Positions 15,101 to 43,945 of a DNA stretch of 43,945 nt are shown here, one piece after another (the first letter of the stretch is position 1; each line of letters opens with the position of its first letter). The DNA is taken from the IMG/VR virus record IMGVR_UViG_3300020416_000015, positions 1 through 43,945 of that record; one strand, written 5' to 3'. Source of the DNA: a virus. The notes under the pieces were generated by a model. The model saw only the letters and a list, made by a program, of their open reading frames with translations. It had not been told where the DNA came from and searched no databases. Position numbers and translations under genes: made by a program.

Positions 15101-15810
15101 ATGAGTTATTCCAAAACTATGGTGCAACAATAGCACAATATAAATCAATAAGTGATGAAGTAATTTATCATTCAGTAGAATACAAGCCGTTATTTGGTGT
15201 TCATGCACAAGAAAATTTACAAGCAACTTTTAAAATTGTAAAAAATACAGGCGAAGTTACTAATGACAATGAAGTAAAAACTTCTGTAATTAATGCAATC
15301 AATCAATTTTTTGCACTAGAGAATTGGGACTTTGGAGACACATTCCACTTCACTGAACTTGCAACACATGTAATGAACAGGGTAGCGCCAGATGTTGTTA
15401 ATATTTTGTTAGTACCAAAACAGGCTACACAAGGATTTGGTAGTTTGTACGAAGTAAAAGCAGAAAATAACGAAATCTTTATTAATGATGCAACTGTTGA
15501 CGATGTAGAAATTATAGATTCTGTAACAGCATCTAGAATACAGTCAACAGGTAATGTAGTTACAGCTACAGGCACAACTAATACAGGAATAAGAAGCCAA
15601 GCGTTGTCGACAAGCAGTACCACAAATACTTCAACAAGTCCAAGTATGCCAACTACAACTACAAGTACAACAAGTACAAGTAGTTCGTCAGGTAGCTCAG
15701 GTAGCTCGGGTAGCTCAGGAAGCTCAGGTGGTTCTGGTTCATCAGGAGGTTCAGGTTCAAGCGGCGGGGGCGGTAGTTCCGGCGGCGGAGGTGGAGGCTA
15801 CGGGTACTAA
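12190..15810 (+). CDS. 6: gp6-like baseplate wedge protein, enlarged
   Basis: The 1206-residue protein is the wedge scaffold related to T4 gp6 and to baseplate J proteins. The N-terminal 120 residues are the conserved part, from DWQKVYQSYRNAEFRSYDFD through YLALIDMIAFLGQNISYRVD to RLARMLSYNARRN. It is nearly twice the length of T4 gp6 (660 residues), with long beta-rich insertions. An EF-hand-like loop occurs at residues 815-826 (DLNEDGSIDDPD). The last 70 residues are a Thr/Ser then Ser/Gly repeat ending in GYGY, unlike the rest of the protein. A late-promoter-like box precedes it and its stop overlaps the next gene in TAATG. The identity is strong; the roles of the added regions are unknown. 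Confidence 0.88.
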   Translation: MSSTDRQNRLLLAEDWQKVYQSYRNAEFRSYDFDTLRRSMITYLRTNYPEDFNDYVDTSEYLALIDMIAFLGQNISYRVDLNARENFLELAERRESVLRLARMLSYNARRNQPANGLLKFETVSTTESMVDSNGSNLAEQTIIWNDPSNANWAEQFRRVLNAALPQNGTIGKPSVTQPINGVLTQQYRFTSAGSDVPVFSFTKGVNGIPTTFEIVSTGIDTDDNVLIEENPVPGNSLAFLYREDGRGSGSSNTGYFLHFRQGSIKSDTFNVNSPSANQRISIEAENINETDVWLYSLDENGVADKIWTKVSSTEGNNAIYNSLNKKIKDFYVIQTRANDEISLVFADGTFGNLPAGGFRLYYRTSANRALSIKPADLTNITISFPYVSKTGATETLTLGLELKTPVNNATTSETTSNIRTNAPQTYYTQNRMVTGEDYNIVPLTTNQEIIKVKSTNRTTSGISRYFDLKDATGKYSSTNLFGNDGVLYREPYENKTSFTFDTQTDIEGTIENTILPIIKNRAISNFYFANYAKIIVSDLNATWVQTTKTTNSSTGLLNNVNEVPYQVGNFTGGSLKYVEAGALLKFKPPAGLYFIGNGDLTSDATAKGASTYKWVKVISVNGAGTSIATDTGQGPIVFNEILPKNSILEEVKPKLVKDITADVRGQIIDQVFAYKTFALRYDQVTRNWRIIINENLNTVDVFSNGKTGDVTNNQLDSSWIILFETNGEKYTVTNRGLRYIFESDKELSFYFDGQNKIYDSQTGQLVKDKVAIMNFNTQPDSLLPFNNDVNWEIVKEFRNADGYINSKKVEVSFFDLNEDGSIDDPDIFDVVVAPLTNANKKYIFLKKVSSEQGFSKFNYYDKGSDIKVVSTETEIGAYSQYESGQIFYIIDNDNFKILSNNSLVITADYKAQTGRSNLKFQYVHSADEGNRIDPSASNIIDVYMLTRNYNNSFRQYLKGVTSVMPLPPSTDELFQNYGATIAQYKSISDEVIYHSVEYKPLFGVHAQENLQATFKIVKNTGEVTNDNEVKTSVINAINQFFALENWDFGDTFHFTELATHVMNRVAPDVVNILLVPKQATQGFGSLYEVKAENNEIFINDATVDDVEIIDSVTASRIQSTGNVVTATGTTNTGIRSQALSTSSTTNTSTSPSMPTTTTSTTSTSSSSGSSGSSGSSGSSGGSGSSGGSGSSGGGGSSGGGGGGYGY
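15691..15804 (+). repeat. 9-base Ser-Ser-Gly/Gly-rich coding repeat at the end of gp6
   Basis: About eight degenerate copies of a 9-base unit (GGTAGCTCA and variants) run from 15691 to 15762 and grade into a poly-Gly stretch to 15804. They encode the Ser/Gly-rich C-terminal tail of the gp6-like protein. This stretch is more GC-rich than its surroundings and could change in length by slippage. Confidence 0.85.
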
Positions 15811-27800: not shown

Positions 27801-30800
27801 ATTACAAGACCTACAATTAAAATTATAGGATCAATAGACGATGGCGGAAGTGTTGCAAGATTAAGTCCTATATTAGGAAGAGGCAAAGCAAGATCAGCTC
27901 ATATTAGATGTAAGTTTGATAGAGTTACAGGAAATTACTTATTCCAAACATTAAGTGAAACAGAAACATTTACAGCAGAAGTAGATCAACAAATATTTAA
28001 TTTGAAATGGCCTATGCAACTTAAAACAACACAAATAAGTGTTACTGTTGATGGGTTGGAATCTTTACGTAGTGAATACATTTTTGATAACATTGAAGAC
28101 ACTTCAAAAGGTTATACTAGGAATTTTGGACGTATATTTTTTACTAATCCGTTAGACAAAGGTAAGTCCGTAATTATCACATACAATAAAGCACCAGAAT
28201 TATTACAAGCACAAGATAGAATAAATCTTTATTATAATCCTACTACAGGAATGTATGGAAATGATTTAGGACAATTACTTGATGGTATTGATTATGGCGG
28301 TGTTGAAGTAAGTAGTTTTGACTTTGGAACAGGAACTGGTTGGGATTCAGACTCATGGTTTACAACAACATATGATACATTTGATACAACCTTTGAAGAT
28401 GAAATCTTCCAAATAGGAGACGATAGTACAAGAGTTTTAAATTTTGCAAGTCCACTAGAAGCTAATGCAGTATATAATGTTTATAAAAACGGTGTAAGAC
28501 TTGATGATCCTAATTTTGGTACAAGTGATCCTGTAACAAACACTGCGGCAGTTATGCAAAGTATTACAGGTGCAGGACAAACAGGCGTTGCATTATATGA
28601 CGATGCAGGTGCTTTAGCTAATGATATAATTATATTTGACGAAGAAGTAATAAGCACAAAACCTAATGATGTGCTTGTATTTAGAAAGTCAACATCAGAT
28701 GGTGCATTTTTACCTGATCCAAGATCATATGATACAATTCTAAGAGGTGGTGATTTTGCATTTAGCACAGCAAGAGGAATAAATCCAGAAGAAATAATTG
28801 TTGACGGTGATGACTTTGTAAGTCCAACAACATCAAAAGGACCTGAAGAACAAGTTCCAGGACAAGTATTAGATTCAGTCAACATTAGAGTTTTCCACAG
28901 ACCACAAGATGGCGGAAGCATGTTATCCAGCAACTCATATCGTGCAGACGGTATTAATGATAGATATGGCTTTGGTATACAACCACAAAATAAAGACGGC
29001 TTGTTTGTAAGATTAAATGATGTGATACTAGCACAAAATTTATACAAAGTAGATTATAGAAATAAACAAGTTAAATTTAATACTATTCCTGCTGTAAATG
29101 CAGATGTTAATATTATTTCAGTAAGCGGAAATGGTAAAAACTCTATTGAACAAAGTGAATTTGTAGGTGACGGAAGTACAAATGCTTTTGTAACTAAAAT
29201 ACATTATAGCACTGACTTAGATTACTATGCAACAGTAAACGGAGAAGCAGTAGATTCTGTTTTAACTTCAACTGAGGATAGTGCAGGACAAGATCCAAAA
29301 GCAATGATTATATTTGGTAGTCCACCTCCTGATAACAGTGTAATTAATTATGCAATTTATACTTCAGTAGATAATTTTAGTAAAATTGAAACTACAGAGT
29401 TTACAGGTGACGGAAGTACAAAGGTATTTCCTTTAGCAAAAACGCCTTATAGTGCTTTACCTAACAGTCATAATGTTATTGTTAAATTAGATAATAAAAT
29501 ACTTAATCCTGGATACAATCAACAATTTGATTGTAAAGCATCACAAAGAGAATATTTCTTAGAATTATGGCAATCACCTGTAGGTAGTTTTGATGATTCA
29601 GATATACTTGTGTTGCTAAATGGTAAAGAACTTACTATTGCAGTTGAATACAATATTCGTCCTTCAAACAGCAGTATTATTTTAGAGCCAGGCATTGGAG
29701 TTGAAGGTGATATTTTAGAAATTTATTTACGAACTGATGGTGATTATGCATTTGGAGATTTACAAATCATCAACAGTCAAAATACATGGGTAGACAGTGG
29801 TAAGAATTTACAACTTAAGACAGCTCCTACTGAAGGACAAAAATTAACAGTTTATACATTTAACAAGCACGATAGTATGGATTTTGAAAGACAAAACTTT
29901 GATGTTGTTGCAAGAAGTGTTCTAAGTATAGGTACTGAAGACCACATACAGTTTAATCATATAAAAGCAGGTTTAGTAAAACTTAGATACCCTGCTATTG
30001 ATGCTCAATATGTATGGCTAACAGTAAATGGAATATTACAAACACCAAGTGTTGACTACAAACTTACAGATGATAAGAATTTTGTAAAATACAAAGGTTC
30101 TTTTGCTGATGACGATGTAGTTGAAGTAATACAATTTAGTTCACAAGGAGAAATTCAACCTAAGTTTGGATTTAGTCAATTCAAAGATATTTTAAATAGA
30201 AACATATATAAGCGTCTTGGTGATGTTGCTCCATTAAAACTTGCAAAAGATTTAAAAACATTTGATAAAGAGATATTTTTAGATGATGCATCTAAATTAG
30301 GACAGCCCGATAAGAATAGCAGTATTCCGGGTATAGTGTTTATTAATGGTGAGCGTATTGAATTCTTAATTAAACAAGGCAATGTATTACGTCAAATACA
30401 AAGAGGAACATTAGGAACAGGAGTACCTAGCGTACATGAGTCAGGCAGTGATGTTTATAACCAAGGACCAATACAAACTGCACCTTATGCAGATCAAACT
30501 ATTGTAGAAGAACAAATAGGTGACGGATCTACAGCAGTATTTCCACTTTCCTTTACACCTACAAGTGTAAACGAGTTTGAAGTGTTTGTTGCAGGTAAAA
30601 GATTGCGTAAAAACGCAGTACAAATGTTTAATCCTACATTAGATCAGGATTCTCCTGAAGCAGATGAGACTGCTCCAGCTGAATTTTCAGTAGATGGTAC
30701 AACAGCGAGCGTAACTCTGTTAAATACACCAGCACTGGATGTTAAAATTAAGATAGTCAGAAGACAAGGAAAACGCTGGGCAGACCCAGGAATTACACTT

Positions 30801-30863
30801 AATGATGCGGAAAGTTTGGTAGCACGTTTCTTTAAGGCAGAAAAGGTGGAGCTACCCAAATAA
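15810..30863 (+). CDS. giant 5017-residue virion structural protein (gp7 position)
   Basis: One open frame of 15 kb follows gp6, where T4 encodes wedge protein gp7 (about 1030 residues). A conserved N-terminal domain opens with LLPRYFRTTANKKFLSATLD and includes DPHISWDKFVNFREYYWL. A cupredoxin-like beta domain is at about 188-272. Another conserved core near 1205 reads DRPHSHPWEILGF. Four W/Y-x-G-D-x-V modules begin near 1513, 1771, 2277 and 2879. FG-GAP-like propeller strands lie at about 2193-3160 (YGYSIAVSADGKKIAVGAP). GSGY motifs occur near 3592, 3955 and 3993, and GDGST beta repeats at 4453, 4533 and 4904. No transmembrane segment is obvious. It is probably a baseplate-periphery or fibre-anchoring protein with sugar-binding parts. 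Gp7 equivalence rests on position only. Confidence 0.8.
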   Translation: MAQDENAIPTDGNSKRRSVDLLPRYFRTTANKKFLSATLDQLVQPGSIEKIDGFIGRRDAKAFKASDNYVADVSQDRQNYQLEPVATISDDLGNTTYYGDYRDLINSAKIRGADNINHSNYNSQEYYAWDPHISWDKFVNFREYYWLPSGPDEIPVFGNARNITSTFNVKKQDNVDNNSYIFSEDNIVNNPTITLYRGQTYNFDIDAVDMPFSIRTSTDIDDDTNLYTIGVDKQKVEKGTITFEVDLEAPEVLYYTNGNDVEASGLIIIKDIRDNSELDVGENILGKKTYTMQNGYELTNGMKVKFYGKITPSQYGEGNWYVEGVGDSIKLISEDDLVITADYLDDVSTEFDNQGFSALPFDDATSYATVKDYIVINRSAKDGNQWSRYNKWTHKSVIENIAKINNVPVVLNQQFRATRPIIEFEAGLKLYNFGTKTKASVDLVDTVTKDVFSDIEGQVGYFVDGVELVSGMRVLFTADPDSFVSGKIYEVRFINQNGTLQIALKETTDATPLENETVLVKSGTNFKGKIFYYNGTTWKQTQDKIKVNQQPLFDLYNDAGTELSALESSTFRGNKVFSYKVGTGANDTELGFPLSYRTIENSGDIVFDFNLLSDSYQYDELADVFTVSTDTALLRKYTDRTTFTSVSAWTKAPYKSKQYVADQFVVAERTNNFIVDVYKNSGDLNDLEIRAYVNGVRKRETVDYVINRVNGYAYVQFNKDLVKDDKLVLKTSSSAKKLNGLGYYEYPINFEKNPMNENVTTFTLGEVLDHVDSIVDNIEGFKGVYPGVSNLRDLGHASQYGLKFVQHSGPINLALYNLTDKDYDAIEAIKYSGFEYIKFKREFLRTANELGFEGTDKIHVDKVLDKLMENKTNKDAFYFSDMMAYSGDTKVRHIIEDESQTIFSLVRGVDYNTLSEKAVYAYLNEKQLLLGKDYSVSADGFLTLLNPPTGGDVLDVYEYVTTDGCWVPPTPTKLGLYPKYTPEIILDDTYLKTPTDVTGPWKVYGIDETTTKSYKGKLGWFYPIYTDETSAQQADIVAGGTGEAHTHTFVGTNKLFWMPNSSMGHATNDSQTFIEYPNARPMIQGHDGSLWRCFGDFRDTLLLDLEKRIYNNLKQQYNENILDIIDYVPGQNRNTGFTRKQISKTMIAEFNSWLETVATPDYVSNTYYKPGDGFTYNYSSAGDPYGNALSGFWRSIYKDFYNTDRPHSHPWEILGFKEKPDWFDDTYGPAPYTANNLILWEDLSKGIVKGTKGSKITYRNKFKNEDIFNYIPVDVEGNLLPPSATGFAVGNIPTTNDNEFAFGDEGPVETAWRRSSHYPFSLMISWALNQPAQFFGLAFDISRIKRNSANQLVYEDTSKRIELNQLQFPNSATDAQRIFTAGIVNYIQGYLADNDTLRFSEYKNNLQSIENKLGSKIGGFTQKSKFRLILDSRTPSNEGNVFVPDENYKIHLTKSIPLDVYSYSGVIIEIVPQGYVVKGYDRDNPVFKYFPVRRKNSDPLINVGGVSENFLTWTEGKTYEAGQIVELQDNYYRVKISHTAGDGFNQDNFQKLAELPEEGGASAYISDNFDVELAEMPYGTLLRDKQDVVDLLIGYQEYLKRVGFSFDKFNQEIEEIENWRLSAKEFLFWTTQNWDSGTILTLSPSARQIEFTKPYTVVDDIYDNFYAYSLLKADGKRLLADFATTERDNTNDFGIFVRNTNDGIYHLKIPVVQYEHAVIIDNKTVFGDVVYNRAQGYRQERIKIKGYRSDEWNGSYNIPGFIFDDAKVVEWTSWTDYSIGDLVKYKQYFYVAQKNVPGSQLFNDYDFVRLNDKPEQRMLPNFDYKARQFADFYDLESDNFDIEQQKLAQHLTGYQKRKYLENIINDDVSQFKFYQGAIQDKGTRNVLTKLFDKLGSANKDSLEFYEEWAVRVGRYGATKGDEQFDLSLDESKYRQEPQLVQLVDFIDPKDTSLIYKVDRNGVYVKPDNYDHKPLPTKYFNDDNSFTKTAGYVNPVDITTQLVSYNDILQQSLYPAGSYIWTAEDKSGQTWGVYKTVSTDYRITEVTASQENKFKITIDKIADYTKGDIIGINDISSDTDGYYKIDSVNLAVITLESVEGEDVEATEPDAVVNGYITEFKPARLKTLQLANDSIKKDPDNIFSLTGSNSATNTIWVDDDDTGKWIVLKNKQVFELKPNIVNTNAGLLDSTEKDFGNAFSVSKDNNRIAISAPKDLNGSVYVYQRPSDNTDFGFLQQIDEQLFLFDSNGGFGQSVAMSPDGKYLAVGSPHASNTKSRLKGDYKNNIAYTTGDIVIYSDQLWKAARNVEADAIQTYQSHASNQQAKSNDYISDTQSYPEIEYMVRGDYTLGKTEATDHILIRAEKEQFEGTKPGDILSLKWNKYTTTTAGGREPFNGDPILTESLINGQHTIADKVQYIVHIQSALSIPDAGTEITTETARATLTYRKVNDENEMTVYIKDVNGSFQASGSIFANGILVGEYEQVLQITDDYHTGWWKVNVGSAFNTEELSDTTANLVVRNITLETQTVNDPFFSNILDTKQIQDVTKPTKVSEIGIFSHTQGQSDIEVLDSKWWVRTPLAHGNSISPGDKTRIWLNDIRVNGLVQNPSAIGLDSTYINTTEHTVADVWNGYVEVRLTNFDLQGNPFIPNIGDTLTDTATGSTAEIAYIERAFATAKIYLKNRNGTWAVGSDFGENSNATFVEIDPNLGPATRTIGPINSAHMENSISGPIIVIDTGTNIPVVVGGANYLRDLEYWIYSSSLIQGITDSANPPSSINLDWTRVYNIPLIAEGYASNVEEEGTYAIYEIKGVTYSLINYFTVPNSATNRRLGTKLRFVQPSADSYKLYIHAEGDGTEANQGRIYFVNKNSTDDWALSVQKNYRGNFRVSATYFENEFVRFGETVYKANTNLVPGPFNVAQWTAQTGGLDLLGYVPNDTNFSIVESTLEQNNLEAFGSDFDVSDNGEVLISNSMYTSVYEIESGNEVLGLDSSIANRKVVVYRLNSASYEYSQILEPFIETEDYGYSIAVSADGKKIAVGAPDNSEVISNGGAVYIYIQDGNSFKFNQTIRPVTVQPNTQFGYKLDFDGNTLAVTSRGGDIVTATTFDTNTTTLDNNSTVFRITDQGSGVISIYETVNNTLLYSQDFAYDLDTQNFGNRMLVNSNHVYVGLPKQQVPNSSVLDKGLVAEFRKPAGTASWSITRRPVIPADVSKFKGVYLYRKKTNSLISYVDYIDPIQGKIAGPAEQELSFKTSYDPARYSNTTTASGITAYPLDYHSDDWIGRLWWDIDSAKFINHHQGDITESSANFNKLFPGTEVKVYEWVESELLPSEYDEESAAQTALEKGISGTTLYGDDAYSVRRKYDPASQTFTTYYYFWVLAKATLPPVDKRSLSCYDVIRLIEEPANIGYRFVAMLADNKFAIHNCESLIEDKDSTISFNWWTIENQEQPTHIQYQLISDGLETSVPNREIEQKWFDSLVGFDTNDRPVPDIDLPIKEKYGALNEPRQSWFVNRTEARKQFIERANKNVAKHLIVDEFDLTPLNGFDPQPTLATGLYDTTADSYGEIGFVSVARVQPAQLTLEVENGVIINVLITNPGQGYINTPTYTISDNKGSGCELDITLNENGAISNVTIINGGRDYTTDVKINVRKFTVLVKSDETIGGKWSVYEWDGKEYLRTLTQSYDINLYWKYIDWYASGYNQFTFINHTIESSFQIYSLDDQIGDIVKINSVGTGGWLLLRKIANLDSQDYTLSYETIGRENGTIEFKNSLYDVNASNTAFDGASFDKIFYDTEPNTEFRLILGILKNNIFIDDLAIYWNELFFASLRYVFAEQPNVDWVFKTSFVKAKHNIGELKQKVTFQNDSLPSYQNYVEEMKPYKTKIREYLSSYEKIDPASNVMTDFDLAPFYDEQSGKILPQDIKVINGEISVGLSDVKRYPGKHWLDNVGFEIVAFSIADAGSGYQVPPRIVIEGGGGSGATADAFIGNGKVTNVIVTNPGSGYITRPTIKIIGSIDDGGSVARLSPILGRGKARSAHIRCKFDRVTGNYLFQTLSETETFTAEVDQQIFNLKWPMQLKTTQISVTVDGLESLRSEYIFDNIEDTSKGYTRNFGRIFFTNPLDKGKSVIITYNKAPELLQAQDRINLYYNPTTGMYGNDLGQLLDGIDYGGVEVSSFDFGTGTGWDSDSWFTTTYDTFDTTFEDEIFQIGDDSTRVLNFASPLEANAVYNVYKNGVRLDDPNFGTSDPVTNTAAVMQSITGAGQTGVALYDDAGALANDIIIFDEEVISTKPNDVLVFRKSTSDGAFLPDPRSYDTILRGGDFAFSTARGINPEEIIVDGDDFVSPTTSKGPEEQVPGQVLDSVNIRVFHRPQDGGSMLSSNSYRADGINDRYGFGIQPQNKDGLFVRLNDVILAQNLYKVDYRNKQVKFNTIPAVNADVNIISVSGNGKNSIEQSEFVGDGSTNAFVTKIHYSTDLDYYATVNGEAVDSVLTSTEDSAGQDPKAMIIFGSPPPDNSVINYAIYTSVDNFSKIETTEFTGDGSTKVFPLAKTPYSALPNSHNVIVKLDNKILNPGYNQQFDCKASQREYFLELWQSPVGSFDDSDILVLLNGKELTIAVEYNIRPSNSSIILEPGIGVEGDILEIYLRTDGDYAFGDLQIINSQNTWVDSGKNLQLKTAPTEGQKLTVYTFNKHDSMDFERQNFDVVARSVLSIGTEDHIQFNHIKAGLVKLRYPAIDAQYVWLTVNGILQTPSVDYKLTDDKNFVKYKGSFADDDVVEVIQFSSQGEIQPKFGFSQFKDILNRNIYKRLGDVAPLKLAKDLKTFDKEIFLDDASKLGQPDKNSSIPGIVFINGERIEFLIKQGNVLRQIQRGTLGTGVPSVHESGSDVYNQGPIQTAPYADQTIVEEQIGDGSTAVFPLSFTPTSVNEFEVFVAGKRLRKNAVQMFNPTLDQDSPEADETAPAEFSVDGTTASVTLLNTPALDVKIKIVRRQGKRWADPGITLNDAESLVARFFKAEKVELPK

Positions 30864-33577: not shown

Positions 33578-35419
33578 ATGGCATATCAGATTAATAAGAC
33601 TAGTGGTGCATTACTTGTAAACCTAGCAGACGGGCAAATTGATGTTTCAAGTACAGACATTACACTAATTGGTAGAAACTATACAGGATTTGGTGAAAGC
33701 ATAAATGAAAACTTTGTTAAAATGTTGGAAAATTTTGCTAATCCAAGTGCTCCACCTAATCCACTAGCAGGACAAATTTGGTGGGATACAGCCACTTCAA
33801 GATTAAATGTTTATACAGGTACAAATTGGACAACAGGTGGAGGACCTATTGTACAACCTACACAACCTTCAATGGTTGCAGGTGACCTATGGATTAACAA
33901 TGATGCTAACCAAATGTACTTTTATGATGGTACAGATTTAGAATTAGCAGGACCTATTTACAATGCTTTCCAAGGACGTTCAGGTCCTGAAGTTGTAACT
34001 GTACTTGACCAAACAGGTACAAGTAGAACTATTGTTAAGTATTGGGTAGGTGGAACATTTGTTGGACTTTGGAGTAAGATTGCATTTACTCCACAAAACG
34101 TTGACACTATTCCAAACTTTGTTGGTGACGTTTCAAAAGGATTTAATGTTGTTGACGCTGATTTTATTTTTGCAGGTACAGCTTCTAGAACAGCGGCACT
34201 TGTAGATAGTAATAATGTATCAAGAACAGCGGCACAGTTTTTAGCAAGTGACTCAGACGATGCAACATCAGGTGCGTTAACAGTAAGAAATAACAATGGA
34301 CTTACTATTGGACTTACAGACAACAATGTTGTCAAAATTGCCGCAGATGGTGTTATTAATGAGAACCAAGTTTCAGGACAAAACTATACATTTAGAATGA
34401 CAACTAGCACTGGTAAAACAGATGCAATGACTATTGATTCTGCAAATAGTAGAATAGGAATTTTTAACACAAGTCCAACGCAAACATTAGACGTTGGCGG
34501 CAACATGAGAGTTGGCGGAAACTTAATTGTTGACGGAGAAACAACAAGTTTAGATGTACAGACATTATTAGTAAGAGATAAAAGTATCGAACTTGCAAAA
34601 GGTGACGATAGTACACTACTTGACGATACAGCAGTTGATCAAGCAGGTATTACAGTAGCGTCTACAAACGGTACTAAAGAATTTTTATGGCGTAACAATA
34701 CAAACTCATGGACATCTAATGTAAGTGTCAACTTAACAGGAGCAAGTTCACTTAAATTTGACGGAGTTGACATTATTACAGGCTCATCAGCACCAGGACT
34801 AACATCATTAGGTGCGTTATCAGATGCTAATATAGGTAGCTTTGCTTTTACAGGTGGTAATGCTTTATCTACAACCACTGTAGATGGTGCTGGTAACGGT
34901 ATGAATATAACAGCGGCTGGCAACATTAACTTAGTTACACCAAGACAAATCAGAAATGTTGCAGATCCAACAGCAGATCAAGACGTAGCAACAAAGGCAT
35001 ATGTTGATAGTAGTATAAATTTAGAAGTTTTATCAATAGCACTAGACGTAACAGGGCTTGGAACAGCAGGAACTACGCAACAGCATACAAATATTGCTAC
35101 AATTTTGAATGATATTGCTCCTGCAAGTACAAAACAGAACGGAACTGAAGCTAGAATACACTGTACAACAACTACAGGTGCTACAGCAACACTTACTGGA
35201 TCTGCTTTGAATACAGCATTCAACGAAAGTTTAATACTTGTACAGCAAAAAGACAACAGCGGAAACGATGATGGCTCTGTAAGTGTTATACAAAGTGCTA
35301 CGTTTAATGATGCTACTGGTAATATTACATCTACGGTATCTAGAACACTTAAATTATTTAGAATTAATGACGGAGCATGGGGTTATGTGCAAGACTTGAC
35401 TCCAGGCGCTTTGATATAA
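33578..35419 (+). CDS. tail fibre protein, paralogue 2
   Basis: This fibre protein of 613 residues begins with the same module as its neighbours (MAYQINKTSG, LLENFA-like MLENFANPSAP, GQIWWDT). The ATG at 33578 is chosen over a TTG at 33566 because the paralogues all start at MAY and the ATG directly follows the preceding stop. The shaft contains RIGIFNTSPTQTLDVGGNMR near residue 292 and an LLVRDKSIELAKG segment. No collar domain is present; the C-terminus (RINDGAWGYVQDLTPG) is beta-rich and may be the tip. It is probably a receptor-binding fibre or a fibre partner. Confidence 0.82.
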   Translation: MAYQINKTSGALLVNLADGQIDVSSTDITLIGRNYTGFGESINENFVKMLENFANPSAPPNPLAGQIWWDTATSRLNVYTGTNWTTGGGPIVQPTQPSMVAGDLWINNDANQMYFYDGTDLELAGPIYNAFQGRSGPEVVTVLDQTGTSRTIVKYWVGGTFVGLWSKIAFTPQNVDTIPNFVGDVSKGFNVVDADFIFAGTASRTAALVDSNNVSRTAAQFLASDSDDATSGALTVRNNNGLTIGLTDNNVVKIAADGVINENQVSGQNYTFRMTTSTGKTDAMTIDSANSRIGIFNTSPTQTLDVGGNMRVGGNLIVDGETTSLDVQTLLVRDKSIELAKGDDSTLLDDTAVDQAGITVASTNGTKEFLWRNNTNSWTSNVSVNLTGASSLKFDGVDIITGSSAPGLTSLGALSDANIGSFAFTGGNALSTTTVDGAGNGMNITAAGNINLVTPRQIRNVADPTADQDVATKAYVDSSINLEVLSIALDVTGLGTAGTTQQHTNIATILNDIAPASTKQNGTEARIHCTTTTGATATLTGSALNTAFNESLILVQQKDNSGNDDGSVSVIQSATFNDATGNITSTVSRTLKLFRINDGAWGYVQDLTPGALI

Positions 35420-35422
35420 ATA
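35415..35422 (+). promoter_or_regulatory. exact T4-type late promoter box TATAAATA
   Basis: TATAAATA matches the T4 late consensus exactly. It overlaps the end of fibre gene 2 (stop at 35417-35419) and lies 26 bases before the ATG of fibre gene 3, with an AGGGG ribosome binding site at 35437-35441. It is the best late-promoter candidate in the window. Confidence 0.7.
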
Positions 35423-35448: not shown

Positions 35449-36936
35449 ATGGCATACGTAATAAATTTAACAAATGGAGCACAGTTAACTACTGTTGAGG
35501 ACGGCACCATTGACCAAAGTACTTCGCTTAAATTAGTAGGTAAGAACTATGCTGGTTACGGTGAAATCCAAAACGAAAACTTTGTCCATTTACTAGAAAA
35601 CTTTTCTAGTGCAAATCAGCCAGCAGGTCCACTATCTGGGCAAGTTTGGTTTGACAGTTCATTAAAGAAATTAAAGTTCTATGACGGAACAAAATTTAGA
35701 ACAACAGGTGGTGCAGAAGTAGGTACTACGCAACCAGTTGGTTTAACAACAGGTGATTTTTGGTGGGATAGCGGCAACAATCAGCTATATGCACAAAACG
35801 CTGACGGTGGATTTGTCCTAATTGGTCCACAGTCCATAGGCGAAACTGTAAGTGCTATGGTTACTGCACAAGTACGTGACAACAATCAAGTTAATAGAAC
35901 AATTATTAAAGGTACAGTCGACGATGGCGTTGTGTTTATTGTAAGCAACGCAGAATTTACTATCGATACAACAGATCCAGCCAATGCCATTACTGGTTTT
36001 GATGTAGTTCGTCAAGGACTTACTTTAAGAAATACAACAAGTTCAACAAACGGTATAACAAGTTCAGCACATAGGTTCCATGGTACTGCTACAAACGCAG
36101 AAAAACTTGGCGGAGTAGCGGCGGCAGATTATGCACTAGCAGGAGCGGCGGACTTTAGCAGTATTGTTAGATTTGCTGACGCTGGATTCACAGTAGGTGC
36201 GGCAAATGACTTAGCAGTGTTTATTGACACATCAGGATCAGGTGATGAAGGTGTTATTGATAACACAGTTGGACAAAAAATTAGATTTAAAGTTAAATCA
36301 ACTGGCGGAGTAACAACAGAACCATTCCATATTCAAGCGGCAGGTTTGATTCCAACAGCTACTACAACATATGACATTGGAGATGCAAACTATAAATGGA
36401 GAAATATGTATGCAACTTCATTTAATGGATTAGCCACACAAGCTATTGCACTACAAGTTGGTAGTAATTATAGAACAGGTGATGTAAATCCAACAAACAA
36501 TACAGTTGCAGTACGTGACTCAAGCGGTAACATTGCCGCAAACGTGTTTAACGGTATATCAACAAGTGCAAGATATGCTGACTTAGCAGAAAAATATACA
36601 ACAGCAGAAGAATATCCAGTGGGAACAGCAGTTGCAGTAGACTTTGGTGACGAAAATGATCACGAAGTTGTAAGTGCAAAATCAAGTTCAATGCCAATTG
36701 GTGTTGTTTCAGCAGAACCTGCTTACTTAATGAACAGTGAAGCAGAAGGACAAGCAATTGGTCTCAAAGGTCGTGTGCCAGTACGTTGCAAAGGAGTTGT
36801 TAAGAAGGGCGAAGCAGTTTATGCTTGGGAAGATGGAGTATGCTCAACAGTACAAACTACAGCATTAGTAGGAATAGCTTTAGAATCTAGTACAGATGAG
36901 TCAGAAAAACTTATCGAGTGTGTACTTAAAGTATAA
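35449..36936 (+). CDS. tail fibre protein, paralogue 3, with conserved C-terminal domain
   Basis: The 495-residue protein repeats the N-terminal module (MAYVINLTNG, HLLENFSS, GQVWFDSS) of the two genes before. Its middle is a short shaft with TTTYDIGDANYKWRNMYATS, a motif shared by many phage fibres. From about residue 374 (ARYADLAEKYTTAEEYPVGT) to the end is a compact beta domain seen at the C-terminus of many fibre and appendage proteins, loosely like the peptidase-G2 intramolecular chaperone. Whether self-cleavage happens here is not visible. An exact late promoter box precedes it. Confidence 0.82.
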   Translation: MAYVINLTNGAQLTTVEDGTIDQSTSLKLVGKNYAGYGEIQNENFVHLLENFSSANQPAGPLSGQVWFDSSLKKLKFYDGTKFRTTGGAEVGTTQPVGLTTGDFWWDSGNNQLYAQNADGGFVLIGPQSIGETVSAMVTAQVRDNNQVNRTIIKGTVDDGVVFIVSNAEFTIDTTDPANAITGFDVVRQGLTLRNTTSSTNGITSSAHRFHGTATNAEKLGGVAAADYALAGAADFSSIVRFADAGFTVGAANDLAVFIDTSGSGDEGVIDNTVGQKIRFKVKSTGGVTTEPFHIQAAGLIPTATTTYDIGDANYKWRNMYATSFNGLATQAIALQVGSNYRTGDVNPTNNTVAVRDSSGNIAANVFNGISTSARYADLAEKYTTAEEYPVGTAVAVDFGDENDHEVVSAKSSSMPIGVVSAEPAYLMNSEAEGQAIGLKGRVPVRCKGVVKKGEAVYAWEDGVCSTVQTTALVGIALESSTDESEKLIECVLKV

Positions 36937-36955: not shown

Positions 36956-37870
36956 ATGGCAGTAGGCGACACAATTACCGCGGCGCGGTACAACATTATT
37001 CAAGCAAGAATTGCGGCAGTCATCGGTCTAGGATCAGGTGATGAAGGTTATGGGCAAGCAAGAGCAAGTCAAACAGTTCCAGTAGGAGCAACGATTACAG
37101 CTCAAGACATGACTAATTTGTTTACTGATATGACAAAGATTAGACTGCACCAAACTGGATCAGTACCAAGCGAAATTGCAGAGCCAAGCGTAGGTGATAC
37201 AGTTGAAGATAGTAATACAACTACAAAAGAAGGGTATGTACAATACGAAAGTTTAAGTACAACCTGTCAAGCATCAAGATTAAGTGCGGCCGCTAGCCAA
37301 TTAGGTTTACAATCAGGAACATCTAGTAGTAGAGGTTCAAGTTGGTCAGATGATATTAACCATTCGTTCACAGTAACATTTGGTGGATATTCAGTTACTA
37401 ACGGCGATGGTACAACAACAACTATAAGTGGTGCAGATCATATGCGTGTATTTTTTAATGCAGGCGGAACTATTAATTTAAGTGGGTCAATTGGTTCAGG
37501 AAATAGCACTATTAATAATGACTGGCGTAACTTAATGACAAGTGTTGGAACAGTTGTGTTTGGTAGAGCAACTACAAGTAATGGATCAGTTGGTACAAAC
37601 TTTGGTTATGCAAATTTGCCAGGAAGTTTTACAACAATTTTTAACAAAACAGCATCTGCATATTCAGCAAACGATTATTTGATTGAAGCAAGAAAAAGCG
37701 GAGCAGTTCTTACATTTAGAGTAACATTCAACGAAGATAAAGGTCCAAATCCAAATTTTGACGAAGCAGTTACAGCAACTACAAGCAGTACAGCTCAATT
37801 AAATAGGCCAAATAACTCTAGTAGCGTTAATATTCCAGCGCCAACTTTCAATACTACAGACAACCTATAA
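36956..37870 (+). CDS. adhesin-like virion structural protein
   Basis: The 304-residue protein starts with a helical region (ITAARYNIIQARIAAVIG) that could form a trimer base, then turns into a beta-rich, Ser/Thr/Gly-rich domain. A recognisable segment is MRVFFNAGGTINLSGSIGSG near residues 163-182, a motif I recall from structural proteins of marine T4-like phages. Near the end it is again Thr/Ser/Asn-rich. It is the last member of the fibre cluster and could be a small fibre or a fibre-tip adhesin. The assignment as structural is likely; the exact role is not shown. Confidence 0.65.
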   Translation: MAVGDTITAARYNIIQARIAAVIGLGSGDEGYGQARASQTVPVGATITAQDMTNLFTDMTKIRLHQTGSVPSEIAEPSVGDTVEDSNTTTKEGYVQYESLSTTCQASRLSAAASQLGLQSGTSSSRGSSWSDDINHSFTVTFGGYSVTNGDGTTTTISGADHMRVFFNAGGTINLSGSIGSGNSTINNDWRNLMTSVGTVVFGRATTSNGSVGTNFGYANLPGSFTTIFNKTASAYSANDYLIEARKSGAVLTFRVTFNEDKGPNPNFDEAVTATTSSTAQLNRPNNSSSVNIPAPTFNTTDNL

Positions 37871-37906: not shown

Positions 37907-38254
37907 ATGGAAGATGCTTTAGAAAAAGCATTAGAGTTTGCTAATTTTTCAGCAACACTTAATACACAGAAAACAATACTGAAAAACAAGTACAAAGATA
38001 ATTGTGCATTGTATTTCAAAGGTGGCAAGTTTACAGTATCTATGACGTTGTTTTCTTTTGTTTCTAATTTACTTTCCCATAATGTAAAAGCAACAGTAAT
38101 TGTTGACGACAACGATACTCCTATACAAATAGATGATGTGCAAGAATTTTTTGATCTTGTTAAGAACAAATATGCAACAGCAAATAACATTTATCTAAAT
38201 GAATATAAGAAACTTACATCACAAAGAAGCATAGAAGGTTTAGTTGATGAATAA
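37907..38254 (+). CDS. conserved small phage protein, function unknown
   Basis: The 115-residue protein has a mixed helix and strand pattern: helical ALEKALEFANFSATLN, a strand and turn CALYFKGGKFTVSMTL, then helical DDVQEFFDLVKNKYATANNIY. It has no membrane segment and no obvious catalytic motif. I recall similar small proteins among tail genes of marine T4-like phages, but no function is established. A good AGGAG ribosome binding site precedes it. The overlap of its stop with the next start suggests coupled translation into the sugar-related genes. Confidence 0.6.
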   Translation: MEDALEKALEFANFSATLNTQKTILKNKYKDNCALYFKGGKFTVSMTLFSFVSNLLSHNVKATVIVDDNDTPIQIDDVQEFFDLVKNKYATANNIYLNEYKKLTSQRSIEGLVDE

Positions 38255-39068
38255 TGGAGTACTATGCTTTGCAAATAACAATAATAAAATAAATTACATT
38301 CTGCAGGCACAAGAACTGGCTATAAGAGTACGCAAGTATTTAGACTTGCCTACAACAATAGTTACATCTACACCCGAAGAAGTAGATAGCACATATTTTG
38401 ATAAAGTAATTACTACAGAACATCCTAGTGGAAATTACAAAAGATATTACGATGGTGCAAGTACACATACTAACATTGCTTTTAATAATGCTGGCAGAAT
38501 AAACAGTTTTGATATCTCTCCTTATGATCAAACATTAGTTTTAGATACAGATGTTATTTTGTGTAACCACGATTTAAAAAATGCTTTCAATAATTTACAC
38601 GAATTTCAAATCTATAAAAATTGTACAGACTTAACAACATGGCGTACACATGATGAATTCAAATACATAAATGACAAAGGTATTTCATTCTATTGGGCAA
38701 CAGCTTTTTGTTTTAAGAGAACTAAACAAACAGAAATATTTTTTAATCTATTAAAAACACTTAGAAAAAATTGGAATCATTATTCACAAGTTTTTGATTT
38801 AGGATCAAGAAACTTTAGAAATGATCATATCTTTAGTATTGCTATACACATGATGGACGGTTTTGTAGAAAGTAATTGGGCAAAAAATTTACCTGGCACT
38901 TTGTATTATACACTAGACAGAGATATATTACAAAAAATAAGTGATAGTAAACTTGTATTTCTTTTACAAAAAGAAAACGTACACAACGAATATATATTGT
39001 CATCTACTAAAGATATGAATGTACATGTCATGAATAAATTTAGTTTAGAGAGGTTATTAAATGTCTAA
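38247..39068 (+). CDS. GT-A-like glycosyltransferase-type protein, family A copy 1
   Basis: This 273-residue protein looks like a glycosyltransferase of the GT-A fold. Its N-terminus (GVLCFANNNNKINYILQAQE) resembles the opening strand of such enzymes. A DTD motif at residues 100-102 (LVLDTDVIL) is the expected metal and nucleotide-sugar site. The next gene is a paralogue with the same PYDQT/PYEET-ILDTDTI arrangement. The ATG at 38247 is preferred over TTG at 38244 because AAGG at 38235-38238 is well placed for it. It overlaps the previous gene by 8 bases. The donor and acceptor are unknown. Confidence 0.7.
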   Translation: MNNGVLCFANNNNKINYILQAQELAIRVRKYLDLPTTIVTSTPEEVDSTYFDKVITTEHPSGNYKRYYDGASTHTNIAFNNAGRINSFDISPYDQTLVLDTDVILCNHDLKNAFNNLHEFQIYKNCTDLTTWRTHDEFKYINDKGISFYWATAFCFKRTKQTEIFFNLLKTLRKNWNHYSQVFDLGSRNFRNDHIFSIAIHMMDGFVESNWAKNLPGTLYYTLDRDILQKISDSKLVFLLQKENVHNEYILSSTKDMNVHVMNKFSLERLLNV

Positions 39069-39858
39069 AGGATATTTGTTAGTTGCAATGGGTAACGAGT
39101 ATGTAGATCAAGCATGCCTTTGTGCATTAAGCATTAAGAAAACACAATCTATATCAAATGTATCTATTATGACTAATGATGTAGTTCCTGCAAAGTATAA
39201 AAAACTATTTGATAAAATAATTGAAGTCCCACAACGTAAGTCAGATAAAAGTTTTTATAGTACAGAGCATAGATGGAAAGTATTCCATATAACGCCTTAT
39301 GAAGAAACTATAATTCTAGATACAGACACAATATTTTTAAGTAATATTGATTATGTCTGGGATAGTTTACAAGGACGCAGTGTAGCATTTTTAACGGATG
39401 CAAAAACTTATAGAGGCAATACTATTGTTGATGATTTTTACAGGCAAGTATTTGTAAAAAATAACTTACCTAATATATACAATGCATTCCATTACTTTAG
39501 ACAAGATCATATTGCTTTAGATTACTACAAACATTTAGAACTTGTTTGTAAGCATACGGAAGATTTTTACAATATACATTTGAAAAAACTAAAACCCAAA
39601 GTATCAAGCATGGATGTCAATCATGCTATTGCTGTCTTGAATAGCAATCTACAAAAATACGAAATAAACACTTTAAACTTTGTTCATATGAAACCGCGTG
39701 TTCAAGAATGGAAAGTGACAAATGGATCATGGATGCAAGATATTCCTTTTTATATAGATGATAATTGCAATTTAAAAATAGGAAATTATTTACAGTCTGG
39801 AGTTTTTCATTACGTAGAACATAAATTCTGTGAAGAGGTAATAGGAAAATATGCATAG
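39061..39858 (+). CDS. GT-A-like glycosyltransferase-type protein, family A copy 2
   Basis: The 265-residue protein is a diverged paralogue of the gene just before. It starts GYLLVAMGNEYVDQACLCAL, typical of glycogenin-like GT-A enzymes, and has its DTD motif at residues 87-89 (TIILDTDTIFLSN). A later FVHMKPRVQEW region includes a His that could complete the metal site. It overlaps both neighbours by 8 bases, so it is tightly coupled. Like its partner it probably transfers a sugar; the acceptor could be a virion protein or a cell-surface glycan, but nothing here proves either. Confidence 0.72.
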   Translation: MSKGYLLVAMGNEYVDQACLCALSIKKTQSISNVSIMTNDVVPAKYKKLFDKIIEVPQRKSDKSFYSTEHRWKVFHITPYEETIILDTDTIFLSNIDYVWDSLQGRSVAFLTDAKTYRGNTIVDDFYRQVFVKNNLPNIYNAFHYFRQDHIALDYYKHLELVCKHTEDFYNIHLKKLKPKVSSMDVNHAIAVLNSNLQKYEINTLNFVHMKPRVQEWKVTNGSWMQDIPFYIDDNCNLKIGNYLQSGVFHYVEHKFCEEVIGKYA

Positions 39859-40378
39859 TATCAAAGTTGAAACAAAACAATATGTATCTTTCAATCCTGA
39901 CACAGGAGAAATATTTGCTATTGGTCCTAGTCAAGAAGAAGGATATCAACATATTGAAGTTACCGAAGAACAGATAGATCCTATAAAAACTTTCAAAGAC
40001 AAAATGGAAGATTATAAAGTTGTTTTCAGTTCTGTAACTAAACAACATGAACTAAGGAAACTTGAAAATAACGAAGATGAGAATCGGTTTCTATTAAATC
40101 AACTACAAGAAAAGCGTAAAGATCCATACTTTGATATTATCTTTTCTGTTGACAAAAAGAAGGATTTATGTTATATTAGTACAATCGAAGGTTTATCTAA
40201 TGTAAAGTTTGACGCAAATATTATGTTTAGCGTTACAAAAAAAGATGATCCGCACTTTCTTATTGAATCTGTAGATTACAAAGTAGGTGATAAGTTGGAA
40301 CTAGAAATAAAATTAGATAAGCCATATAGCATATTCACAGACAGCAATTCGTTACGTTGTGTATATGAGGAGATATAA
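39851..40378 (+). CDS. unknown 175-residue protein of the sugar-modification block
   Basis: I do not recognise this protein. It begins with a beta hairpin (KQYVSFNPDTGEIFAIGPS), continues with an acidic and basic helical stretch (about residues 40-95) and ends with beta strands (PHFLIESVDYKVGDKLELEI). There is no signal peptide, membrane segment or Cys pair. It lies between a family A and a family B glycosyltransferase-type gene, overlapping the former by 8 bases and the latter in TAATG. This suggests a joint function, such as a scaffold or acceptor for the block. Confidence 0.5.
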   Translation: MHSIKVETKQYVSFNPDTGEIFAIGPSQEEGYQHIEVTEEQIDPIKTFKDKMEDYKVVFSSVTKQHELRKLENNEDENRFLLNQLQEKRKDPYFDIIFSVDKKKDLCYISTIEGLSNVKFDANIMFSVTKKDDPHFLIESVDYKVGDKLELEIKLDKPYSIFTDSNSLRCVYEEI

Positions 40379-41292
40379 TGAAGATTGCAGAACTTGATAT
40401 TATATTTTTGAGTTATGATGAACCAAATGCTGATAAAAATTATGCAGACCTATTAACAAAAGTTCCTTGGGCAAAACGTGTACACGGTATAGAAGGTTCA
40501 GATGCCGCACATAAAGCCTGTGCAGAATTATCTGAAACAGACAGATTTATTACAGTTGATGGCGATAATACTATACGTCAAGACTTTATCAATCAAGTAT
40601 TAGACTTTGATGAACATACTGATTTAGCAAATAGTGTTATAAGTTGGTGTGGCAAAAATACAATAAATGGATTGATGTACGGCAATGGCGGACTTAAATG
40701 TTGGCCTAAAGAATATGTTTTAAATATGAAGACACATGAAAATGCAGATCCAAACAATCCACATGCACAAGTAGATTTTTGTTGGGATATTAATTACATT
40801 CAACAAAACAGTTGTTATTCAGATGTTCACAATAACGAAACACCACACCAAGCATGGAGAGCTGGTTTTAGAGAAGGAGTAAAACTTGCTCTTGATAGAG
40901 GTGTAAGAATTAGTAAAGAGCAATTTAAAGTAGGCCATGCTAAAAATTTAAATATGTTATATATTTGGATGATGATAGGTGCTGATATGCCTAATGGTTA
41001 TTGGGCTATTGCAGGAGCTCGAGAAGGCTTGTCAATGACAATGCTTACTGACTGGGACTATATAAATGTAAGAGATTTTCAATATTTAAATAATTTATTT
41101 GCAGGACGTGACGAAATGCCAGACGATGTGTTACACAGCGAAATATTTAATCATGGTTCTGATTTGATAAATGAGTTAGAGATTCCTATTGCTATACAAC
41201 CGTTAAATGAAGAACAAAGTGCATTTTTTAAAACAGTAAATGAAAACTACGGTAGGGTAATTAATAATAAGGTAATCGACAGAGAAAATTAA
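40378..41292 (+). CDS. GT-A-like glycosyltransferase-type protein, family B copy 1
   Basis: The 304-residue protein starts with AELDIIFLSYDEPNAD and carries a VDGDN motif with D61 and D63, the DxD site of a GT-A enzyme. A second signature is NGLMYGNGGLKCWPK near residues 97-111. The gene at 42638 shares this layout (VDGDA, then YGYGGVKLLP), so the two form a second paralogous pair distinct from family A. I recall such proteins from cyanophage and pelagiphage genomes. It overlaps the genes on both sides in TAATG. It probably uses a nucleotide sugar; the substrate is unknown. Confidence 0.7.
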   Translation: MKIAELDIIFLSYDEPNADKNYADLLTKVPWAKRVHGIEGSDAAHKACAELSETDRFITVDGDNTIRQDFINQVLDFDEHTDLANSVISWCGKNTINGLMYGNGGLKCWPKEYVLNMKTHENADPNNPHAQVDFCWDINYIQQNSCYSDVHNNETPHQAWRAGFREGVKLALDRGVRISKEQFKVGHAKNLNMLYIWMMIGADMPNGYWAIAGAREGLSMTMLTDWDYINVRDFQYLNNLFAGRDEMPDDVLHSEIFNHGSDLINELEIPIAIQPLNEEQSAFFKTVNENYGRVINNKVIDREN

Positions 41293-42650
41293 TGCGAGTA
41301 GAGCCAACAGAAGTTAAACAGAAACTAGACGCTGTCGGTTGCGGCTTTTGCCTTGCCAAATGGACGCAAGTTACAATACATTTAGGTTCAGGACTTACAC
41401 AAAGTTGCCATCACGTAAAAGCTCACCCTATCGATTTAAATGATCTTGCAACTAATCCAAGTGTATTACATAATACAGGCTTTAAGAAAAACATAAGAAA
41501 GCAAATGTTGAATAATGAACGTCCTGCGGAATGTAATTATTGTTGGAGAATAGAAGACAATACCGGAATGACAAGTGATAGGATATGGAAAAGTAGAGAT
41601 AATTTTAGTTGGCCGCACTATGACACTATCAAAAATCTAACAGGAGATGAAAATTTTTATCCTACATATGTTGAAGTAAGTTTTAGTAATGTATGTAATT
41701 TCAAATGCGGATATTGTGGTCCTGCATTTAGTAGTAAATGGGGTGATGAGATTAGAGAACATGGTGCTTATACATTTGATACAACCAATTGGAAATACAA
41801 TCAGCCTGACGAATATCAAAAACAGATTCCCGAAAGAGAAGAAAATCCGTATATAGAAGCATTTTGGAAATGGTTTCCGGACGCAGTGCAACATATGCAT
41901 ACTTTTAGAATTACAGGCGGTGAACCGCTTATGTCAAAACATACAAACAAAGTTATTGATCATCTTATGAATAATCCACAGCCTAACTTAGAATTTTCGA
42001 TAAATTCCAATGCTTGTCCTCCGGGTAAACTTTGGAAGCAATTCGTAGATAAAATTAAAGTTTTAGAAGATAAGAAATGCATCAAGCGTTTTATATTATT
42101 TGTTAGTGCTGAAGGGGTTGGCGAACAACAAGAATACAATAGGTTTGGTATGGATTGGGATATGTTTACTCGTAATGTTGAATATTATTTAAGTAGCACT
42201 CAAGGAGTATGTAGTTTTATGAGTGCATTTAATATTTTAAGTATTCCTACATTTTATAATTTTTTACAGTATGTCGCAGATTTAAAAAACAAATATTACA
42301 CAAAAGATTTTCAAAGAGTTTTAGTAGACATACCTTATGTAAAAAGTCCAGGATTTTTAGATGCCAAGATTAGCACTTACGATCTAGTTCAAGAATATCT
42401 ATATCCTTGTGTATCTTTAATGAGAAAGAACAAATTTTCAAATATAGAAATACAAAAAATGCAAAGAATTATTGCTGATTTAAATGTAAGGCATGATAAA
42501 CCTGAAGAATTTGAAACAGAAGCTATAGAAGGCCGACGCATGTTTTACGAATGGATACAACAATATGATAAAAGGCGTGGCACAAATTTTATAGAAACAT
42601 TTCCAGAAATGAATAGATTTTTAGAGGACTGCAAAGCATGTATGATATAG
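41292..42650 (+). CDS. radical SAM protein with N-terminal twitch/SPASM-like domain
   Basis: The 452-residue protein has the radical SAM cluster motif Cys135-x3-Cys139-x2-Cys142 (CNFKCGYC), followed by FRITGGEPLM, the SAM-binding GGE motif. N-terminal to it is a twitch/SPASM-like region with Cys17, Cys20, Cys39, Cys81 and Cys84 in SPASM order (CLAKWTQVTIH, then SCHH, then ECNYCW). It probably holds an auxiliary iron-sulfur cluster. Two more Cys form a CxxC at 447-450. Twitch-containing radical SAM proteins with this arrangement are known in databases and in marine phages. Family members modify peptides or small molecules, and no precursor peptide was found here. The gene sits between two family B enzymes, overlapping one by 13 bases. 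The activity is inferred. Confidence 0.85.
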   Translation: MRVEPTEVKQKLDAVGCGFCLAKWTQVTIHLGSGLTQSCHHVKAHPIDLNDLATNPSVLHNTGFKKNIRKQMLNNERPAECNYCWRIEDNTGMTSDRIWKSRDNFSWPHYDTIKNLTGDENFYPTYVEVSFSNVCNFKCGYCGPAFSSKWGDEIREHGAYTFDTTNWKYNQPDEYQKQIPEREENPYIEAFWKWFPDAVQHMHTFRITGGEPLMSKHTNKVIDHLMNNPQPNLEFSINSNACPPGKLWKQFVDKIKVLEDKKCIKRFILFVSAEGVGEQQEYNRFGMDWDMFTRNVEYYLSSTQGVCSFMSAFNILSIPTFYNFLQYVADLKNKYYTKDFQRVLVDIPYVKSPGFLDAKISTYDLVQEYLYPCVSLMRKNKFSNIEIQKMQRIIADLNVRHDKPEEFETEAIEGRRMFYEWIQQYDKRRGTNFIETFPEMNRFLEDCKACMI

Positions 42651-43321
42651 TTTTTATTAGTTACTACGAGCCTAATGCAGATGACCTATATAAAGATCTG
42701 TACACTAGATATAATAGCACAGGTGTATTTGGTGATAGAGTAAAGCGTATAAAAAATGTAAAAGGAATTCACAACGCACACATTGAAGCGGCTAAGATTG
42801 CAAACACAGATTATTTTTATGTTGTTGACGGAGACGCAGAAGTATTAGATAGTTTTAACTTTGATTATATTGTTCCTAATTTAGTTGAAGATGTAGTGCA
42901 TGTATGGACAAGTATAAATCCGATAAATGATTTAGCATACGGTTATGGCGGTGTAAAACTTTTACCAACACAACTTACAAGGAACTTAAATACAAATAGT
43001 AGTGATATGACAACAAGTATTAGTAATAATTTTAAGGTTATGAATGAAGTATCTAATATTACGTTTTTTAATACAGATGAATTTAGCACATGGAAAAGTG
43101 CATTTAGAGAATGTGCAAAGTTGAGCAGTAAAATAATTGATAGACAAGATGAAGGAGAAACAGATGAAAGACTCAAAATATGGACTACTAAGGCTAATGG
43201 AAGATTTTGTGAGTATGCGATTCGAGGTGCTAGGGCTGGTATGGAGTTTGGCCTTTCTAGCGGGGCTGACCTTCGGCTAATAAATGACTTTGATTGGTTA
43301 AAGGAAAAATTCAATGCTTAA
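42638..43321 (+). CDS. GT-A-like glycosyltransferase-type protein, family B copy 2
   Basis: The 227-residue protein is a shorter paralogue of the gene at 40378. It begins YDIVFISYYEPNAD and has D64 and D66 in VVDGDAEVL. The second signature YGYGGVKLLP follows near residue 105. The C-terminal EYAIRGARAGMEFGLSSGAD matches WAIAGAREGLSMTM of the longer copy, so the core is complete and the difference lies mainly in the last 70 residues. It overlaps the radical SAM gene by 13 bases and the last gene by 8. Confidence 0.7.
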   Translation: MYDIVFISYYEPNADDLYKDLYTRYNSTGVFGDRVKRIKNVKGIHNAHIEAAKIANTDYFYVVDGDAEVLDSFNFDYIVPNLVEDVVHVWTSINPINDLAYGYGGVKLLPTQLTRNLNTNSSDMTTSISNNFKVMNEVSNITFFNTDEFSTWKSAFRECAKLSSKIIDRQDEGETDERLKIWTTKANGRFCEYAIRGARAGMEFGLSSGADLRLINDFDWLKEKFNA

Positions 43322-43945
43322 TATTGTTGTAACAAGTAAACCTGTAGATGGACTTTTTTATTATAGCTATGAGTATTGCTCTCTTTTGAATAGTTTAGGA
43401 ATAAAAGCAAGAGTAATTGTAATTACACATAGAAACTTTACACAGCAAGATTACTTAGATGTATTGAAGTACAAGTACATACATCAACATAATGTTTTGT
43501 TTAACTCATTAGATGGTTGGACAGGTGACGCTACACTAATTATGGGTAGGAGTATGATGACATTGAGCTACCAAGACTTTGATAGTTACACAATGCAACA
43601 GCAAATGATACTACGTACTTTGTTTGCAGGTAATGTAATTAGTGTATACTCAGAAAATCATCCTACAAAATATCCACTAGCAGTTGAATTTTACCAACCT
43701 GAGAAAATTGTAGACTTATGTGATAAAGAAGTATATCCTAATGGCGTAGGAATACATTTTGAAAAAACAATTAATTTTGACATATACAAAAAGCATAAAG
43801 ACAATATACAATTCAAGCATTTATTTTTAGGAACCAATGACAAATATTATGCAACAGTGGAAAAAATTATTGATCAATATCCAGATCATGGTATTTTAAC
43901 ATATGATGCTGATTACATAAATCCTAAAAATAATAACATATTTGT
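43314..43945 (+). CDS. partial unknown protein, possibly GT-B-like glycosyltransferase
   Basis: An open frame of 210 codons starts at ATG 43314 and runs off the right edge. It begins MLNIVVTSKPVDGLFYYSYE and continues with CSLLNSLGIKARVIVITHRN. A VISVYSENHPTKYPLAVEF segment lies near residue 103. The opening, a strand then a helix then LGIKARVIV, resembles the N-terminal Rossmann domain of GT-B enzymes. No conserved catalytic residues can be named, and the donor-binding C-terminal half is outside the window. Its start overlaps the previous stop by 8 bases (ATGCTTAA), so it belongs to the same operon. Confidence 0.6.
   Translation, partial: MLNIVVTSKPVDGLFYYSYEYCSLLNSLGIKARVIVITHRNFTQQDYLDVLKYKYIHQHNVLFNSLDGWTGDATLIMGRSMMTLSYQDFDSYTMQQQMILRTLFAGNVISVYSENHPTKYPLAVEFYQPEKIVDLCDKEVYPNGVGIHFEKTINFDIYKKHKDNIQFKHLFLGTNDKYYATVEKIIDQYPDHGILTYDADYINPKNNNIF

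Follow-up and report, generated by a model that had tools for sequence, protein, structure and literature searches.

A conserved late gene block of glycosyltransferase-like proteins and a radical SAM enzyme lies behind the tail fibres of T4-like aquatic phages and may decorate the tail tip

A virus record of 43,945 bases (IMGVR_UViG_3300020416_000015, positions 1 to 43,945), analysed here over its whole length and called the window, carries eight overlapping, same-direction ORFs at positions 37907-43945, directly after the gene of a tail-tip-like protein, fib304. Their order is A115-B274-C265-D175-E304-F452-G227-H (hereafter A to H), and they include four glycosyltransferase-like proteins and a radical SAM enzyme. 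More than 100 related viruses carry the set, which probably serves to decorate the tail tip. We propose, as a reading to which we give about an even chance, that the block is a late module glycosylating a tail-tip component (fib304 or D) and that F tailors the sugar; we infer both the acceptor and the chemistry. If so, the structure by which a widespread lineage of aquatic phages contacts its host would bear a glycan tailored by enzymes, and phages of uncultured hosts could vary receptor binding without altering their fibre genes.

Gene order behind the tail fibres

The source of the window is a T4-like aquatic phage, as marked by SbcCD-like gp46/47, a late sigma factor, baseplate genes, a 5017-aa structural protein and fibres. 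The tail fibre protein fib495 (35449..36936, + strand; phrog_19602 tail fiber, 1.4e-15) precedes fib304 (36956..37870, +), which we identify by alignment as a tail-tip-like structural protein with an FFNAGG motif and consider a candidate acceptor; in relatives, too, the block follows fib495. The small conserved protein A (37907..38254, +) starts 36 nt after the end of fib304, and each gene then overlaps the next (A/B by 11 nt, B/C by 8, C/D by 8, D/E by 1, E/F by 1, F/G by 13, and G/H by 8). The preliminary description of this DNA had placed these genes, joined by overlaps, directly after the tail fibres, and all of them are indeed found there. Since the same block recurs on a second contig (L031/L081), with E and F 100% identical to those of the window, the arrangement cannot be put down to misassembly. 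No membrane segments were found in A to H.

Loci from relatives were gathered by four separate queries (F, E, A, and gp203); the tallies cover the nearest relatives returned in each scan and therefore describe this lineage rather than all phages. For 125 distinct E proteins, the genes immediately ahead were exactly A-B-C-D in 100 cases, and loci gathered by A alone show the same gene order. A lack of conserved order in related phages, which the preliminary description had named as a ground for refutation, was thus checked for and not seen. A match to the F profile lies at most eight genes from E in all 67 loci with enough downstream sequence, in some of them only via the shared radical SAM core, and G, free or fused, is present in 48 of these 67. 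E-G fusions occur in L121, L124, and L127; longer ones, with a third domain and an additional 340-440 residues, occur in L123, L126, and L136, and their extra length fits the methyltransferase-like gene found after G elsewhere. One further fusion (L057) joins G to a radical SAM protein. Conserved order and fusions bear out the earlier suggestion of one operon serving one pathway.

Among the 51 contigs that were picked by the upstream gene gp203 and reach 9 kb downstream, A-B-C follows the fibres in 43; another breaks off after A, and four (L286-L289) stop before A would be visible. The remaining three of the 51 (L281, L290, and L318) have neither fib304 nor the block in the available stretch, these being short records in which the absence of E is weak by itself. 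In isolates, tblastn with F, E, A, and C and with diverged forms of E (L163) and A (L117) gave no match in 50,697 phage records. The search itself works, since gp6-like and gp203 queries matched 60-62 jumbo phages, of the Rak2-like/Atu_ph07 type.

Late promoter and co-divergence with fib304

The T4-type late promoter box TATAAATA is present once in the window (35415..35422, +), against 8.5 expected copies, 27 nt before the start of fib495, where it is the probable promoter of fib495, fib304, and the block. Over 117 distinct fib495-to-E stretches of relatives, the box occurs 69 times; 61 copies lie within 70 nt before fib495 or fib304 (1.8 expected) and 1 lies in A-E. Because the copies crowd before these two genes, the block most likely has no late promoter of its own and relies on read-through from the tail-tip promoters. 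The late timing that we deduce from this motif would be compatible with an envelope target too. Separately, the depletion of the box in the window looks as if selection had removed stray late promoters.

The divergence of fib304 was followed by partial distance correlation over 35 loci, with four structural proteins as controls rather than a full phylogenetic null. Correlations were 0.58 for B, 0.55 for D, 0.31 for C, 0.23 for E, and 0.14 for A. The correlation with A is thus low although A is placed between the other two genes, fib304 and B; in 300 of 300 half-samples, it was lower than the correlation with B. A coupling of fib304 to B and D is suggestive only on these data, and E, the best-conserved transferase, yet does not track fib304. 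The close tie to the fibres claimed earlier is supported. Fibres, another virion part, and the host surface had all been left open as targets; promoter read-through and co-divergence narrow this choice towards a tail-tip component, without settling it.

Placement also bears on whether the glycosyltransferases hypermodify the bases of phage DNA, as DNA-decorating phage glycosyltransferases are well known, those of T-even phages being cited in PMC12619734. The block sits behind fibre genes in a late operon, and neither the annotated window nor the downstream stretch of the close relative L003 showed a recognisable base-modifying enzyme, be it a hydroxymethylase, a thymidylate-synthase-like protein, or a kinase. 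We regard this explanation as very improbable, and O-antigen synthesis also ranks low.

Two glycosyltransferase-like pairs and their partners

The four glycosyltransferase-like proteins form two paralogous pairs by profile comparison (hhalign E values of 6e-28 for B and C and 1e-46 for E and G), with no detectable relationship between the pairs, in line with the earlier view that they looked unrelated. B (38244..39068, +) and C (39061..39858, +) are glycogenin-like. The profile of C matches glycogenin-1 with an E value of 1.2e-6 over about 105 positions of C, and that of B with 0.04 only; the DxD region is common to both. With 26 members examined for B and 26 for C, no match to a Pfam GT8 model above its cut-off appeared, and we assign the pair to a predicted GT8 type by sequence relation and conserved DxD.

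The DxD (metal/nucleotide-sugar) motif is kept intact in all four proteins, at the positions originally reported. In B, numbered from a TTG start, it is the DTD at 101-103 (D100/D102 in the earlier numbering), with both aspartates invariant in aligned members; in C it is the DTD at 87-89, with D89 invariant and D87 kept in at least 90%. The DGD motifs of E (D61/D63) and G (D64/D66) are each invariant in 26 aligned sequences.

Pfam, NCBIfam, and PHROGs barely recognise E (40378..41292, +) or G (42638..43321, +), and no Pfam model recognised the block's glycosyltransferase-like families beyond one weak Glycos_transf_2 match, to the G of the window. The structure of E was predicted by AF2 with a pLDDT of 89.1 and a pTM of 0.88. 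Its best solved fold matches are the SunS/ThuS peptide S-glycosyltransferases (E 1.1e-4, with a weak TM of about 0.35), followed, at a similarly weak TM near 0.35, by polypeptide GalNAc-transferases and the PBCV-1 capsid glycosyltransferase. The model thus predicts for E a GT-A fold with DxD, at a TM of about 0.35 and with a fold that nucleotidyltransferases also have. By homology to E, the paralogue G would be GT-A glycosyltransferase-like as well; in relatives it is found fused to E or to a radical SAM protein.

D (39851..40378, +) is a fast-evolving protein with a conserved N-terminal YVxFDxxTGEI motif and may serve as acceptor or adaptor. It is predicted to be a folded beta protein of two domains (pLDDT 86.8), and its fold search returned no solved relative below an E value of 1e-3 and otherwise unnamed viral proteins only. 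H (43314..43945, +) comprises at least 210 aa, runs off the contig end, and measures 284 aa in L003. No useful family or PDB match to H emerged in any library searched, and its earlier suggested identity as a GT-B protein found no support in these searches.

F (41292..42650, +) is by sequence a clear member of the N_Twi_rSAM family, matching NCBIfam NF033640 with 305.5 bits (cut-off, 170) over positions 4-397 of the 398 in the model. We know of no established function for this family, which here is tied to a glycosyltransferase block. The radical SAM cluster C135-x3-C139-x2-C142 and the extra cysteines 20, 39, 81, and 84 are invariant in 24 aligned sequences, as expected from the initial account of a radical SAM protein with additional Cys. 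Together, C20-x13-G34-x4-C39 and C81-x2-C84 form the first half of a SPASM signature, but at the N terminus; the classic SPASM/twitch auxiliary motif, C-x9-15-G-x4-C ... CxxC, is C-terminal. Single phage records (L153, L233, L327, L199, and L189) hold up to 13-14 hits of the N_Twi_rSAM type, mostly clustered beside E.

Downstream genes and cellular homologues

In L003, the block continues beyond H with a radical SAM ORF, a SPASM-only ORF, a DegT aminotransferase, nitroreductases, another radical SAM gene, and a carbamoyltransferase. Of the ORFs downstream of the block in relatives, 571/609 have no hydrophobic segment, and four are multi-span and desaturase-like. Lipid-carrier transferases, flippases, and polymerases, by which an O-antigen or LPS cluster would be identified, were not recognised in the cluster. 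Bacterial relatives were searched across six genomes. Homologues of E/G lie next to radical SAM genes in Bdellovibrionota bins (L165, L167, and L168) and in a KSB1 bin (L171). The Bdellovibrionota bins also have a methyltransferase-like family in common with the phage loci, and the KSB1 homologue, a G-like protein, sits in a polysaccharide/ABC export locus. Cellular E/G homologues thus lie in or near envelope-polysaccharide loci (L168 and L171), a context that favours a surface-glycan role.

These observations bear on the main rival to tail-tip glycosylation, namely, that the block remodels the host envelope glycan (LPS or capsule), for example hiding the receptor from competitors or stopping the re-adsorption of progeny to debris. 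It is how the authors of the pelagimyophage study (PMC7029224) themselves read GT8 genes beside fibres, the Bdellovibrionota and KSB1 loci agree with it, and the DegT and carbamoyltransferase genes downstream would suit O-antigen-type sugars. The missing flippase, polymerase, and lipid-carrier transferase and the near lack of membrane proteins nearby speak against it, as does a core order as conserved across related contigs as the fibre operon itself, when envelope-editing genes would be expected to vary. Moreover, the block appears to share late transcription with the tail-tip genes and is absent where fib304 is absent. All told, we hold envelope remodelling to be rather unlikely.

Decoration of the virion is favoured by the fixed order, the fusions, the placement of the late box, the co-divergence with fib304, the few membrane proteins, the fold of E, and the DegT and carbamoyltransferase genes of L003. 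It is weakened by the indirect nature of the acceptor assignment, by the low TM of E and a fold common to nucleotidyltransferases, by the failure of E to track fib304, and by the envelope loci of cellular E/G. For tail-tip glycosylation, we envisage that transcription from late promoters before fib495 or fib304 would read through into A-B-C-D-E-F-G. B and C would attach the first sugars to a tail-tip component, with fib304 as first choice and D as second, and A might help as an adaptor or chaperone. The glycan would then be lengthened by E and G, and F could perform on it a radical C-H reaction, whether an epimerisation, a dehydrogenation, or a cross-link. Further downstream genes of relatives (aminotransferase, carbamoyltransferase, methyltransferase-like, and more radical SAM genes) may vary the outer decoration. 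The phage would likely benefit through changed receptor binding or through a protected tail tip.

Cultured relatives and peptide modification

In two cultured relatives, the Sinorhizobium phage Phosso (L329, 20333-21253) and the Agrobacterium phage Atu_ph07 (L330, 21062-21952), SPASM peptide-maturase-like radical SAM genes occupy the slot behind gp203 and a fibre gene, replacing the block. The named models nearest to them are DynA/PapB/DarE, with HxsB/HxsC below cut-off. They adjoin the gene of a roughly 300-aa protein with three terminal CHxS repeats (CHTSCHASCHSSRSRR; CHSSCHASCHNSRSRR), an end that resembles, by sequence, a radical SAM-modified C-terminal tail. Such a Cys-rich radical SAM target was also considered for fib304; since fib304 has few Cys and no repeat among the entries listed, this model was abandoned for the window.

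A related possibility is that these enzymes produce a small molecule or a modified peptide, with D or a short peptide as precursor and sugars as tailoring groups. Radical SAM enzymes with auxiliary clusters often use peptides as substrates. One phage record has as many as 14 clustered hits of the N_Twi_rSAM type, the nearest folds to E include peptide S-glycosyltransferases, and the cultured relatives hold peptide-maturase-like enzymes in the same slot, all of which would agree with a peptide product. No short ORF that resembles a precursor and has a conserved core is seen in the block, D is predicted to be a folded beta protein, and no transporter is found nearby, so we judge this product improbable.

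Relation to known systems

Glycosyltransferases and radical SAM cassettes beside fibres have been described for pelagimyophages (PMC7029224), and a T4-like marine genome holds 12 radical SAM genes (PMC5332604); the earlier view that their pairing in a phage late operon is unusual is not supported. The pelagimyophage host recognition cluster resembles the block in belonging to T4-like aquatic phages and in having, in one region behind baseplate genes, fibres together with several glycosyltransferases of the GT8 type and with radical SAM cassettes. However, that cluster is described as a hypervariable island and read as modifying the host O-chain (PMC7029224), whereas here the gene order is fixed, late promoters are indicated, genes are fused in relatives, and a tie to fib304 is seen; isolate records gave no match to F, E, A, or C. 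Mycobacteriophage glycosyltransferases act on capsid and tail proteins of the virion (Freeman et al. 2023, as cited in PMC11256854 and PMC12619734). Phage-encoded glycosyltransferases are common to both systems; as far as these citing accounts describe the mycobacteriophage system, the radical SAM enzyme, the GT8-type pair, and the fixed position after the fibres distinguish the present block, whose acceptor is a proposed one. Moraphages (PMC12619734) likewise are large T4-type phages from water, and the target of their four core glycosyltransferases is unknown; radical SAM genes go unmentioned in that text, and the lineage may be a different one.

Phage virion glycosylation and glycosyltransferases with radical SAM genes near fibres are thus already known. 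In the literature searched, outside which most subscription journals lay, we came upon neither the fixed A-E block nor its late promoter, its fusions, or its link to a radical SAM enzyme. We advance tentatively, as a possibility well short of even, the fuller proposal of an undescribed late module in which GT8/GT-A transferases would glycosylate fib304 (or D) and N_Twi_rSAM enzymes would diversify the glycan by C-H chemistry. Radical SAM chemistry would then join virion modification, and the N_Twi_rSAM family would gain a biological context.

Three relatives (L115, L212, and L218) encode, downstream of E, multi-span membrane proteins that resemble fatty-acid desaturases (GYHRLISHRSF motif). 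Elsewhere in the window, the single 5017-aa ORF at 15810-30863 shows successive matches to virion structural, head-closure, and baseplate families, and an ORF at 190-612 (- strand) matches an "NAD synthetase" phage family and homing endonuclease families simultaneously.
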